Part shown: positions 9,691 to 59,701 of the stretch, one piece after another
Position numbering within the stretch: the stretch's first letter is position 1
How the letters are laid out: each line of letters opens with the position of its first letter
Assembly: GCF_001189915.1 (NCBI RefSeq)
Contig: NZ_LFLS01000001.1
Coordinates: 248,001 to 312,000, forward strand
Direction: 5' to 3'
Length of the DNA: 64,000 nucleotides
Source of the DNA: Herbaspirillum autotrophicum
Lineage (GTDB): Bacteria; Pseudomonadota; Gammaproteobacteria; Burkholderiales; Burkholderiaceae_D
Made by a program: the position numbers and the translations under genes
Notes under the pieces: generated by a model
Told to the model about the DNA's origin: nothing
What the model saw: the letters and a program-made list of their open reading frames with translations, nothing else
Databases searched by the model: none

Positions 9691-9696
9691 ATCTGT

Positions 9697-10965
9697 ATGT
9701 CATCTTCTCCATTTCCAATCGCGTCCGGTCCGCTGGCGCGTCGTCAGAGCCGTCGTGCCGTGATCAGTCATGGCGATCGTCAGGTATTCGTGGGTGGTGG
9801 TGCGCCGGTGATGGTGCAGTCCATGACCAATACCGATACCGCAGATGCGATCGGTACTGCGATCCAGATCAAGGATCTGGCGCGTGCCGGTTCGGAAGTC
9901 GTGCGCATTACCGTCAATTCGCCGGAAGCCGCGGCGGCAGTAGCGCCGATTCGTGAGCAACTCGATCGCATGGGGGTGGATGTGCCGCTGGTCGGCGACT
10001 TTCACTACAACGGTCACACGCTGCTCAATGATTATCCTGATTGCGCGCAGGCCTTGTCGAAGTACCGGATCAATCCGGGCAATGTCGGCAAGGGCGCCAA
10101 ACGCGATACGCAATTTGCGCAAATGATCGAAGTGGCATGCCGCTACGACAAGCCGGTCCGTATCGGTGTCAACTGGGGCAGTCTCGATCAGGCATTGCTG
10201 GCGCGTATCATGGACGAAAATGCCGGGCGCAAGGAGCCGTGGCCGGCGCAGGCGGTGATGTATGAAGCGCTGGTGACATCGGCGATTGAAAACGCGCAGC
10301 GGGCAGAACAACTGGGGCTGGCGGGTGACAAGATCATCCTGTCCTGTAAAGTGTCCGGCGTGCAGGATCTGATTGCGGTCTATCGCGAGCTGGCGCGTCG
10401 TTGCGATTATCCGTTGCATCTCGGCTTGACCGAAGCCGGTATGGGCAGCAAGGGCATCGTGGCATCGACGGCGGCATTGTCGGTGCTGTTGCAAGAGGGC
10501 ATTGGTGATACGATCCGTATCTCGCTGACGCCGGAGCCGGGTGGCGACCGTACCCGGGAAGTCATCGTCGGGCAGGAAATTCTGCAAACCATGGGCTTGC
10601 GCAAATTCACGCCGATGGTGATCGCTTGTCCCGGATGTGGTCGGACCACGTCAACAGTGTTTCAGGATCTGGCCGACAAGATTCAGACCTATCTGCGCGA
10701 TCAGATGCCGCACTGGAAGGGCGAATATCCCGGCGTCGAAAGCATGAATGTGGCCGTGATGGGATGCATCGTCAACGGTCCGGGCGAATCCAAGCACGCC
10801 AATATCGGCATCAGTCTGCCGGGCACCGGCGAGTCGCCGGCAGCACCGGTTTTCATCGATGGCGAGAAAAGAATGACCTTGCGCGGCGAACGTATCGCCG
10901 AGGAATTTCAGGCAATTGTGCTGGAATATGTACAGACCCGCTACAGCAAAAAAGTCGCGGCCTGA
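9697..10965 (+). CDS. ispG: 4-hydroxy-3-methylbut-2-en-1-yl diphosphate synthase
   Basis: IspG (GcpE) carries out the penultimate step of the MEP isoprenoid pathway, reducing MEcPP to HMBPP with a 4Fe-4S cluster. The 422-residue protein shows GDFHYNGH near the N-terminus and cluster ligands in ACPGCGRTT and [11 protein letters not shown]. It starts six bases after rodZ and is followed by hisS, the usual order. Confidence 0.97.
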
Positions 10966-57017: not shown

Positions 57018-57711
57018 GATCGACAACCTCCACGCGTATTACGGCCAGAGTCACGTCTTGCATGGCGTGTCGTTGCGGGTCGATGCCGGTGAAATCGTCA
57101 GTGTGCTGGGGCGCAATGGCGTCGGTCGTTCGACCTTGCTCAAGGCCATCATGGGGCAGTTGCAAACCGAAGGTAGTATCCGCTTTCGCAATGAACCGAT
57201 GGCGGGTTTGAAAACCTTCGATATTGCCCGCCGCGGCATTGCCTATGTGCCGGAAAGCCGCGATGTGTTTCCGGGGCTGACGGTGGCGCAAAATCTGCTG
57301 CTCGGTCAGCAACGCCGGCGCAGTCATCAGCCGGCAGCATGGACTGCGGCCGACATGTACCGCATGTTTCCGCAACTGGAGAAGCGGCGCGCTGTGGCGG
57401 CCGGTCTGTTGTCGGGCGGTGAGCAGCAAATGCTGAGCCTGTCGCGTTCACTGATGGGGAATCCGGATCTGATCCTGATCGATGAGCCGACCGAAGGCTT
57501 GTCGCCGCAGATGGTGGAGCTGGTGGCCGGTTATCTGCAAGCCTTGCGCGGGCGCGGTATTGCCGTGTTGCTGATCGAACAGAAACAAACCATTGCGCTG
57601 GATATTTCGCAGCGACTGTATGTCATGGGGCATGGCGCGGTGGTGTTCGACGGCACGCCGCAGCAGTTGCAAGAGAATCGCGCGCTGCGCAGCGAGTGGC
57701 TGGAAATCTGA
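57007..57711 (+). CDS. Second LIV-type ABC ATP-binding protein (LivF-like), Walker A Arg variant
   Basis: The 234-residue ATPase starts MLLEIDNLHAYYGQSHVLHG. Its Walker A reads GRNGVGRST: the normally invariant Lys is Arg (codon CGT). The other motifs are normal (LSGGEQQMLSLSRSLMG, LILIDEPTEGLSP). Such a change weakens or abolishes ATP hydrolysis in many ABC proteins, though I believe similar LivF variants occur in other proteobacteria. The start is ATG 57007, overlapping livG-like. Confidence 0.9.
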   Translation: MLLEIDNLHAYYGQSHVLHGVSLRVDAGEIVSVLGRNGVGRSTLLKAIMGQLQTEGSIRFRNEPMAGLKTFDIARRGIAYVPESRDVFPGLTVAQNLLLGQQRRRSHQPAAWTAADMYRMFPQLEKRRAVAAGLLSGGEQQMLSLSRSLMGNPDLILIDEPTEGLSPQMVELVAGYLQALRGRGIAVLLIEQKQTIALDISQRLYVMGHGAVVFDGTPQQLQENRALRSEWLEI

Positions 57712-57797
57712 TACCAGTATCTGTCAAAGATAGCGAATGCGGTATCCCTGCCTGTCGCCAGCGGTAAAGAAAAATTTACGATTGCACGGATTTTGCA

Positions 57798-57819
57798 CAT
57801 GGCGGCAGGTGCCGCCATG
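57798..57819. repeat. Near-uninterrupted inverted repeat downstream of the livF-like gene
   Basis: CATGGCGGCA (57798-57807) and TGCCGCCATG (57810-57819) form a perfect 10-bp stem with a 2-base centre. No T-run follows on either strand, so it may be a regulatory DNA palindrome or RNA structure. Confidence 0.55.
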
Positions 57820-57834
57820 CATGCTGTTGTTCGG

Positions 57835-57858
57835 CCGGGAGTGTCGCGACATTCCCGG
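57835..57858. repeat. 24-bp palindrome next to the peptide gene
   Basis: CCGGGAGTGTCG / CGACATTCCCGG is a 12-bp palindrome with one mismatch and no loop. It lies 20 bases beyond the peptide stop. No T-run is present, so a terminator role is unsure; a protein-binding site is possible. Confidence 0.5.
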
Positions 57859-57878
57859 TCGTCAGCATTGGTTAGGCC

Positions 57879-58043
57879 TTAGCAGCGGTCGTCACCGCCG
57901 TCAAGTGGCGGGGGCGGTTCGCAGGTCGGTGGCTTTGGCGGCAGACATGCCGGCGCCGCTGGCTTGAAGATGTGCAGAAGTTGCAGCAGGCAGCAAAAAC
58001 CGCCGGCGACATTGCTCAGTTCGGTGCTATTCAGTGCTTTCAT
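57879..58043 (-). CDS. Double-glycine-leader, Cys/Pro-rich small peptide (possible bacteriocin/RiPP precursor)
   Basis: This 54-residue peptide has the N-terminal leader MKALNSTELSNVAGG, with the (E)L-S-x-V-x-GG pattern of double-glycine leaders removed by C39-peptidase ABC exporters. The predicted core of 39 residues starts FCCLLQLLHIFKP, then turns to a Pro-rich stretch (10 Pro) with 5 Cys in all. It ends in an acidic tail DGGDDRC. GGGAG six bases before ATG 58043 supports the start. No transporter, peptidase, immunity or modification gene is adjacent, so export must use genes elsewhere. I do not recognise a named family; function is inferred from the leader only. Confidence 0.7.
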   Translation of the reverse strand: MKALNSTELSNVAGGFCCLLQLLHIFKPAAPACLPPKPPTCEPPPPLDGGDDRC

Positions 58044-58079
58044 GGCAAACTCCCAGGTAAAAGTTGCATAACGGAGGGG

Positions 58080-58103
58080 CACTGCCGGTGTTGTCTGGCA
58101 GTG
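58080..58103. repeat. Inverted repeat upstream of the peptide gene
   Basis: CACTGCC (58080-58086) and GGCAGTG (58097-58103) form a perfect 7-bp dyad with a 10-base centre, 37 bases before the peptide start. It could be an operator or 5'-UTR hairpin. Confidence 0.45.
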
Positions 58104-58408
58104 AAGTAACGATAAGTATTTTGGCCGGCGATGTATATTGAACTATCCCCGTTTTGTCTTCCTTCTTCCGCACGCAATTCCCTGCATCAAATATGGCGAG
58201 GGCCAAGAGAAAGTAGGGGCTTTGATCTGAAAAAAACGTGATGGCGGGGCGACGGTATGCGACAAACTGCTGCAACGGCTCGATGAGCAAGGACGGAAAT
58301 CGTGGGAAGCGGGCGTTGCCACGGAGGAGATTGCTGGCCGGGCAGAAGTGCAGTCAGCCGGTCATGGCAGCGGGCGCGGCCATGACCTCATGCAAAAGGC
58401 GTGGTTGA
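58104..58408. other. Intergenic region between the peptide gene and the MFS gene
   Basis: About 300 bases hold no gene I can support. It presumably contains the peptide promoter (minus strand), but no clear sigma-70 pair stands out. A TATACA sits near 58131-58136 on the minus strand without a good -35. An ORF spanning 58027-58290 lacks a family and a ribosome site. Confidence 0.4.
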
Positions 58409-59701
58409 TTACTTGTTGACCAGTCGCGCTGGCACCGTCAGTGTCAGCAAGCCGCCCAGCACCAGCGATGCTGCCAGCACATACATGCCGGAGTTGGTGC
58501 TTTGGGTGGCATCTTTGAGCCAGCCCACCAGATACGGGCTGACAAAACCGGCCAGATTGCCGAGCGAATTGATCAGGGCGATGCCGGCAGCGGCCGCCGC
58601 ACCGCCCAGGAATGCCGTCGGCAGACTCCAGAACAGCGGCAGGGTGGTCATGATGCCGATGGTGGCCAGCGTCAATGCCGCCATGGCGACGATGGTGTTG
58701 TGGTCATACATGGTGCTCAGCAGCAGGCCGATGGCGCCGAGGAAAGCCGGAATGGCGACGTGCCAGCGGCGTTCGCGATGCTTGTCGGCGCTGCGCCCCA
58801 CCAGCACCATGGCGACGGCGGCGAAGGCATACGGAATCGCCGTCAGCAAGCCGATGTTGAGCGGATCGGTGACGCCGGTGGTCTTGATGATGGTCGGCAA
58901 CCAGAAGCTGACGCCATACAGGCCCATGACGAAACAGAAATAGATCAGCGCGCTCAGCCATACCTTGGGATTGGCAAACATCTGGCCCATCGAGGTTTCT
59001 TGTTTTTGGCTGGCTTCGGCCTTGATCTGGGATTCCAGCAATTGCTTTTCGGTTTCGCTCAGCCAGTCGGCGTCACGGATGCGGTCTTTCATGTAGAAAA
59101 TGATGACCACGCCCAGTACCAGCGAAGGAATCGCTTCCAGAATGAACATCCACTGCCAGCCGCTCATGCCGTAGACGCCCGGCATGGAGTGCATGATCCA
59201 GCCCGACAGCGGGCCGCCGATGACGCCCGACAAGGCAATCCCGGTCATGAACAGCGCCGTGATCTTGCCGCGCCGGTGCGACGGATACCAGTAAGTCAGG
59301 TACAGAATCACGCCCGGGAAGAAGCCGGCTTCGGCCACGCCCAGCAGGAAACGCATGACATAAAACATTTCCGGCGTGGTGACGTAAATCATGGCGCCGG
59401 AAATGATGCCCCAGGTGATCATGATGCGGGCGATCCAGAGCCGGGCACCGACCTTGTGCAAGATGATGTTGCTGGGGACTTCGAAAATGAAATAACCGAT
59501 GAAAAAGATACCGGCGCCAAGGCCGTACACGGTTTCGCTGAACTTGAGGTCGGCCAGCATTTGCAGTTTGGCAAAGCCGACGTTGACGCGGTCCAGATAA
59601 GAGGCAACATAGCAAAGGAACAGCAGTGGCAGCAAACGCCACGTTACCTTGGAAAAGGTGGCTTCTTCAAATGACGGGGTACTGGCAGGATGTTGCGACA
59701 T
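58409..59701 (-). CDS. MFS transporter, anion:cation symporter (ACS)-like
   Basis: The 430-residue, 12-helix transporter shows LLPLLFLCYVASYLDRVNVGFAK in the first helix region, typical of the ACS family that imports organic anions such as tartrate, galactarate or aromatic acids. GGAG upstream supports the start. It is downstream of the SDR-ALDH-SDR genes on the same strand and may bring in their substrate. Confidence 0.9.
   Translation of the reverse strand: MSQHPASTPSFEEATFSKVTWRLLPLLFLCYVASYLDRVNVGFAKLQMLADLKFSETVYGLGAGIFFIGYFIFEVPSNIILHKVGARLWIARIMITWGIISGAMIYVTTPEMFYVMRFLLGVAEAGFFPGVILYLTYWYPSHRRGKITALFMTGIALSGVIGGPLSGWIMHSMPGVYGMSGWQWMFILEAIPSLVLGVVIIFYMKDRIRDADWLSETEKQLLESQIKAEASQKQETSMGQMFANPKVWLSALIYFCFVMGLYGVSFWLPTIIKTTGVTDPLNIGLLTAIPYAFAAVAMVLVGRSADKHRERRWHVAIPAFLGAIGLLLSTMYDHNTIVAMAALTLATIGIMTTLPLFWSLPTAFLGGAAAAAGIALINSLGNLAGFVSPYLVGWLKDATQSTNSGMYVLAASLVLGGLLTLTVPARLVNK

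Follow-up and report, generated by a model that had tools for sequence, protein, structure and literature searches.

A putative double-glycine-leader peptide gene of Herbaspirillum autotrophicum whose product is probably exported in trans

We analysed a 64,000-nucleotide stretch of Herbaspirillum autotrophicum DNA (hereafter the window) and found on its minus strand, at 57879..58043, a 54-codon ORF that is probably the precursor gene of a small secreted peptide exported in trans. This reading draws on features seen in the DNA, namely a double-glycine (GG) leader, a ribosome site, a C39 exporter with an intact catalytic triad on another contig of the genome, a 5′ motif common to other precursor genes, and a DNA-level relative (G031b) that adjoins the operon of a peptidase-containing ABC transporter (PCAT) in another genome of the genus. 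According to the mechanism that we propose, the ribosome would make the 54-residue chain, the C39 peptidase domain at the N terminus of a PCAT would recognise the leader, and the PCAT would cut after Gly15 and export the 39-residue core, which would leave the cell through an HlyD-type adaptor and a TolC-type channel. Because no exporter is linked to the window gene, we propose that the exporter encoded on contig C25 most likely acts in trans on the window peptide; the peptide encoded next to this exporter and an orphan on contig C24 would be further substrates. The secreted core, possibly held by disulfides, probably acts outside the cell, in antagonism or in signalling.

The ORF extends from the ATG at 58043 to the TAA at 57881-57879, and translation of the plus strand over the same interval reads differently. 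A GGGAG ribosome site is located 7-11 nt ahead of the ATG (58050..58054, minus strand), in agreement with an earlier sequence-only reading that had described a 54-residue gene with a good ribosome site here, naming no strand. The product consists of the 15-residue leader MKALNSTELSNVAGG (57999..58043, minus strand) followed by the 39-residue core FCCLLQLLHIFKPAAPACLPPKPPTCEPPPPLDGGDDRC (57882..57998, minus strand). Our composition count agrees with the 5 Cys and 10 Pro already noted for the core, which also contains 2 Gly and has a computed unmodified mass of 4,172 Da and a computed pI of 5.4. A start at an in-frame GTG farther upstream would lengthen the ORF to 67 codons; we preferred the ATG because of its ribosome site and the 15-residue leader. 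A 24-nt near-perfect palindrome (CCGGGAGTGTCGCGACATTCCCGG, 57835..57858), read directly 20 nt past the stop codon, has no T-run and is a possible transcript end. The promoter and terminator scan found neither a sigma-70-like promoter nor an intrinsic terminator at the peptide gene, and the locus had no Rfam match.

The gene is flanked by a plus-strand ABC ATPase ORF of the branched-chain amino-acid transporter type, which ends at 57711, and by a minus-strand MFS ORF that starts at 58409. According to domain matches, the three adjacent large ORFs encode two ABC_tran proteins and one MFS_1 protein, and no tailoring enzyme was recognised among them, so that the earlier suggestion of a RiPP finds no support here. 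That no exporter lies nearby was borne out by tblastn with C25 and G031 proteins: the two HlyD queries had no match in the window, and all significant matches of the two PCAT queries were to the ATPase domain. For a linked transmembrane immunity gene, we applied a simple test to ORFs of 40-250 codons in 57690-58430 (Kyte-Doolittle mean of at least 1.6 over 19 residues), and 0 of 10 ORFs reached the threshold, as the sequence-only reading would have it. We also rejected the alternative of an upstream leader ORF serving a gene downstream of it, since the large ORF that comes next on that side sits on the opposite strand.

Judged by profile and model scores, the leader of the window gene exceeds what chance would give. 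It is short, ends in GG at residues 14-15 and is hydrophobic at −4 (V12), −7 (L9) and −12 (L4), as double-glycine leaders (ending in GG or GA) are (PMC11494933). With a matrix made from 24 leaders of loci around exporters, the window peptide start ranked first among the 5,129 starts in the window that have 15 open codons (15.5 bits; next 11.8), and in 30 windows with shuffled bases, which offered 100,912 starts, this score was never attained. In leave-one-out scoring the 24 training leaders reached 16.1-36.9, which places the window leader just under the weakest of them. A second profile, built from 31 leaders that included those of G031, G007 and C24 and left out the window leader, gave the latter a score of 23.3. 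This profile was applied to 84,431 distinct starts, six loci that repeat the window gene being excluded; among starts outside its training set, just three outscored the window leader, and all three lie in exporter loci (L135, two starts; L128, one). These scores support the C39-type double-glycine end claimed for the leader.

A 75-position DNA model of four other precursor genes, with the window gene excluded, had the peptide locus as its top match in the window with a rough E-value of 0.0012 (runner-up 0.19). A 20-column protein HMM built without the window peptide gave it an E-value of 2.6 over the whole genome. The Bacteriocin_IIc family PF10439 aligned to residues 2-21 at 13.6 bits (E 0.068), below its curated cut-off of 27.1 bits, so that the peptide is not a member; in the own-genome search this family reached E 0.81, also below cut-off, and it was weakly positive in 9 of 14 control genomes as well. 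No NCBIfam family was found for the peptide. If the ORF had arisen by chance and were not expressed, this would agree with the bare ELSxVxGG DNA pattern, which occurs at chance level in 6 Mb (2 matches, and 2 in the reversed control), and with the single-sequence searches described below, which returned no significant homologue, but the combination of leader, ribosome site and upstream DNA scores like a precursor gene and there is 74% DNA identity to G031b, and we consider a chance ORF very improbable.

In the genome of H. autotrophicum, we found two C39-domain ABC proteins, on contigs C25 and C23. The C25 PCAT can be aligned with 4ry2, a transporter of solved structure, and has Cys, His and Asp at the matching places; these are the catalytic residues of C39 (PMC11494933; this and the other articles cited are drawn on in excerpt). 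The genome search called for by the sequence-only reading thus returned one C39 exporter with an intact triad, as expected for a genome that encodes a PCAT substrate. This exporter adjoins an HlyD gene that precedes it, with a 52-codon GG peptide (MQVLNRQEVKEGSGG...) upstream. Read by eye, the C23 protein has TDTGLQC where C25 has TECGLAC, with Thr in place of Cys, and therefore lacks the catalytic Cys; HlyD and OEP proteins adjoin it. A third relative, on contig C89, lacks both a C39 domain and the front part of the membrane domain. The genome has 48 OEP domain matches, so OEP-type channel proteins are present, and an exporter match at 64% was found in Pseudoduganella rivuli.

The leader HMM matched the precursors on C89 and C25, both training members, and a new candidate on C24 (E 0.0028). 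The C24 gene (L166, G000:C24, 9539-9697, minus strand) has 52 codons, encodes MQILTQAELKDVAGA followed by GLDIGIWNGGPLHGPLGGQVIVESSPSGGLDIETWVP and carries AAGGAG ahead of its ATG; searches of its contig found neither a C39 protein nor an exporter match with an E-value of 1e-60 or below. The earlier description of the window gene as standing alone is therefore correct for the locus but not for the genome, which holds a C39 exporter on C25 and this second orphan GG peptide, the latter found by the proposed search for other such leaders.

The window, C25 and C24 genes also share upstream DNA. The heptamer AACTTTT sits 22, 21 and 22 nt ahead of the ATG in the window gene on contig C1 (58059..58065, minus strand), the C25 gene and the C24 gene, respectively, and in 0 of 5,000 shuffles of four upstream regions did three share a 7-mer at a matching offset. 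Over the 45 nucleotides of the leader, DNA identity to the window gene is 29 for C24, 27 for C25, 18 for C89 and 24 for G031, and pairs without the window gene range from 20 to 29. A DNA model of the C24, C25 and window genes had no other convincing match in the genome; weak DNA-model matches on C67 and C13 read as other proteins and were rejected. All three peptides have a 15-residue leader, but the C25 and C24 cores contain 19 and 24% glycine and no Cys, unlike the Cys/Pro-rich core of the window peptide, and the C25 peptide has a linked exporter whereas the window peptide does not.

The same three-gene DNA model, run over 61 genomes, led to the same-genus genome G031 (contig C61, E 0.009), where two Cys/Pro-containing GG peptides lie beside HlyD, PCAT and OEP/TolC genes and a 314-codon ORF. 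These are G031a (L193 5691-5813, minus strand) and G031b (L193 6196-6354, plus strand), and they read MKQIDRSQLENISGG followed by FCRPKCCGNPC... and MKQLDRTQLENVAGG followed by TFCQPKNAC.... The window gene and G031b are 74% identical over an ungapped 65 bp, from 10 nt before the ATG through codon 19 (E 7.6e-8 for a 945-base subject set). When a profile of the window peptide, G031a and G031b was run over 392 family genomes, it added one convincing member (E 1.3e-5), in the same-genus genome G007 (L234 7571-7759, plus strand). The G007 peptide, MKQVERSHLDNISGG followed by CKHRRP...PPPPP, is encoded upstream of HlyD, PCAT and OEP genes in an orthologous operon. The PCATs of G007 and G031 are 67% identical, and those of G031 and C25 are 27% identical. 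The 314-codon ORF of G031 (L193, G031:C61, 6440-7384) separates a Cys/Pro GG peptide from its HlyD and has no Pfam match; in the G007 operon, this place is not occupied by an ORF of that size.

G031a, G031b and G007 resemble the window peptide in having a 15-residue MK-type leader, a Cys near the GG and a Pro-containing core, but they are linked to HlyD-PCAT-TolC operons and differ from it in the rest of the core and in Cys spacing. Leader identity to the window peptide is 6/15 for G031a, 10/15 for G031b and 6/15 for G007, and three other precursors reach 8/15, ahead of G031a and G007. Because the link runs via G031b and via a profile that contains the window peptide, G031a and G031b, any kinship of G031a and G007 with the window peptide would be indirect. 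A Cys follows the GG within 3 residues in all four peptides, and beyond it the Cys positions are not conserved. Of the leader and Cys conservation on which the sequence-only reading had set its check, the leader part thus holds for G031b and, less certainly, for G007, and the Cys part for one residue only.

The similarity of the cores was compared with shuffles. It was no better than composition would give for G031a and G031b (974 and 1,171 of 2,000 shuffles reached the score), and for G007 and a Polaromonas sequence, L048, it arose only via poly-Pro (14 and 18 of 2,000). The 5-mer KPAAP, which is common to the window peptide and G031a, was equalled by 225 of 20,000 shuffles; FC after the GG together with LP at core positions 19-20, also shared with G031a, was equalled by 8 of 20,000, a post hoc observation on which we do not rely. 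Across 21 precursors, leader identity correlated weakly with the Cys and Pro content of the core (rho 0.32, p 0.16). The L048 peptide (9696-9908, minus strand, from a Polaromonas MAG) is a Cys and poly-Pro GG peptide, MRILTLEEMELVAGGCGKPK...PPPPPPVDTGTL, located some 1.6 kb past a PCAT match of the C25 type.

Single-sequence homology searches were less productive. In the genome_contigs collection 594 stretches matched, none of which was confirmed; among the 61 relatives nothing was significant, with G031b present at E 0.47, and twelve matches of that search were translated and rejected, none being a GG peptide. Nothing significant was found among plasmids and phages or in the 392 family genomes, where the best non-self E-value was 8.4e-4. 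A plasmid megablast with the 10-kb region matched 72 records, none at 80% coverage, and the five listed were short matches of 71-73% identity. Two further matches of the three-peptide profile were rejected: one in G278 (1e-4) is partial, contains a TGA and has no such leader, and one in G276 (E 0.0017) also has no such leader. At 14 same-genus loci syntenic with the neighbouring MFS gene (the MFS match plus 1.5 kb to either side, scanned for ATG starts preceded by an RBS-like stretch), the 17 filtered ORFs included no GG precursor when inspected by eye.

Because the closest gene pairs with a PCAT type that is apparently absent from the genome, we weighed whether the window gene is a relic of a G031/G007-type operon (peptide, HlyD, PCAT, TolC) that was otherwise lost, leaving an orphan that is no longer exported. 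G031b adjoins exactly this type of operon, no exporter of that type turned up in the genome of the window, and the only C39 proteins found there, on C25 and C23, are 27% and 24% identical to the G031 PCAT. Moreover, C25 may not accept the window leader because PCATs can be selective, as with the Rtg PCAT, which prefers its own set of GG peptides (PMC7018657). Against a relic stand the intact ORF, ribosome site and leader, the lack of any HlyD or C39 fragment found in the window and the 5′ motif common to the window, C25 and C24 genes, and on balance we hold this history to be unlikely. That a cognate exporter exists but is absent from the assembly would be in keeping with a draft genome of 99 contigs, but its listed completeness is 99.98%, and we give this explanation very little weight. 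Export in trans, with C25 as the candidate exporter, is the reading that we prefer.

As for function, the peptide could be a bacteriocin resembling class II microcins, with an immunity gene that is unlinked or has escaped recognition; we hold this to be possible though short of likely. The length of the leader, its GG end and the hydrophobic residues at −4, −7 and −12 are as in enterobacterial class II microcins (PMC11494933), and a PCAT and an HlyD are present in the genome. Set against the class II microcin criteria as far as excerpted from PMC11494933 and PMC9746304, the peptide has the leader features but neither the linkage nor the glycine content: no PCAT or MFP gene lies close to it in the window, the C39 exporters being on other contigs, and glycine makes up 4 of its 54 residues (7.4%) compared with 12-26% in known ones (PMC11494933). 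The peptide further differs in having no family match and no immunity candidate, none of the gap ORFs of 40-250 codons in the window containing a membrane-helix-like stretch; the same was true of the gaps read in G007, G031 and C25, where the 314-codon ORF of G031 falls outside the size range. Glycine content and gap ORFs thus tell against the bacteriocin of the sequence-only reading.

Because the gaps of the window, C25, G007 and G031 contain no membrane-helix-like ORF of 40-250 codons, signalling is about as likely as killing. The exported peptide would then act as a signal or in some other non-lethal way, and it would belong to a co-regulated group of GG peptides that use one exporter; we assign this reading the same limited plausibility. 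Such a role fits the 5′ motif common to three dispersed genes and the absence of a membrane-type immunity candidate from the gaps, and it has a precedent in pneumococcus, where the ComAB PCAT serves several GG peptides and contributes to the export of BriC (PMC7595303). On the other side, we noticed no receptor gene alongside, and AACTTTT has no known function. BriC is a GG peptide that uses a multi-substrate PCAT, as we propose for the window peptide, but it comes from a Gram-positive bacterium, in which its competence regulation and biofilm role have been shown (PMC7595303).

Taken further, the dispersed GG peptides on C1, C24, C25 and perhaps C89 might be controlled through a common 5′ motif and exported by a single PCAT acting in trans. 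A Gram-negative, beta-proteobacterial genome would then have an equivalent of the GG-peptide network of pneumococcus, its secreted peptides being hypervariable, in part rich in Cys and Pro, and without immunity genes beside them; we regard this scheme as rather doubtful. A genome-wide screen for GG leaders in Gram-negative bacteria was reportedly made by Dirix et al. 2004. The kind of peptide is already known, but the window member and its small family seem to be undescribed in the literature searched; titles and the starts of abstracts yielded no description of such a peptide in Oxalobacteraceae, subscription journals lying mostly outside the scope of the search. Because recent microcin searches take nearness to a PCAT gene as a mark of a true precursor (PMC11494933, in the part drawn on), unlinked precursors such as those of the window and C24 are easy to miss. 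Should a single exporter indeed handle several dispersed precursors that carry the 5′ motif, counts of secreted peptides in Burkholderiales would be too low, and a search by leader combined with upstream DNA, as tried here, could uncover such sets. The product itself could be a new antagonistic or signalling peptide rich in Cys and Pro.

Several GG precursors with similar leaders and different cores occur in a row near one exporter in L135 (G056:C363) and in L128 (G048:C3). On contig C89 (L122, G000:C89, 7013-9637), the 115-aa GG precursor MRNLTESELDFVSGA... overlaps by 4 bases an ORF with a JmjC_2 domain (PF08007, E 6.8e-23), which is followed by the exporter ORF without a C39 domain. The JmjC oxygenase coupled to this precursor could be a peptide-tailoring enzyme.
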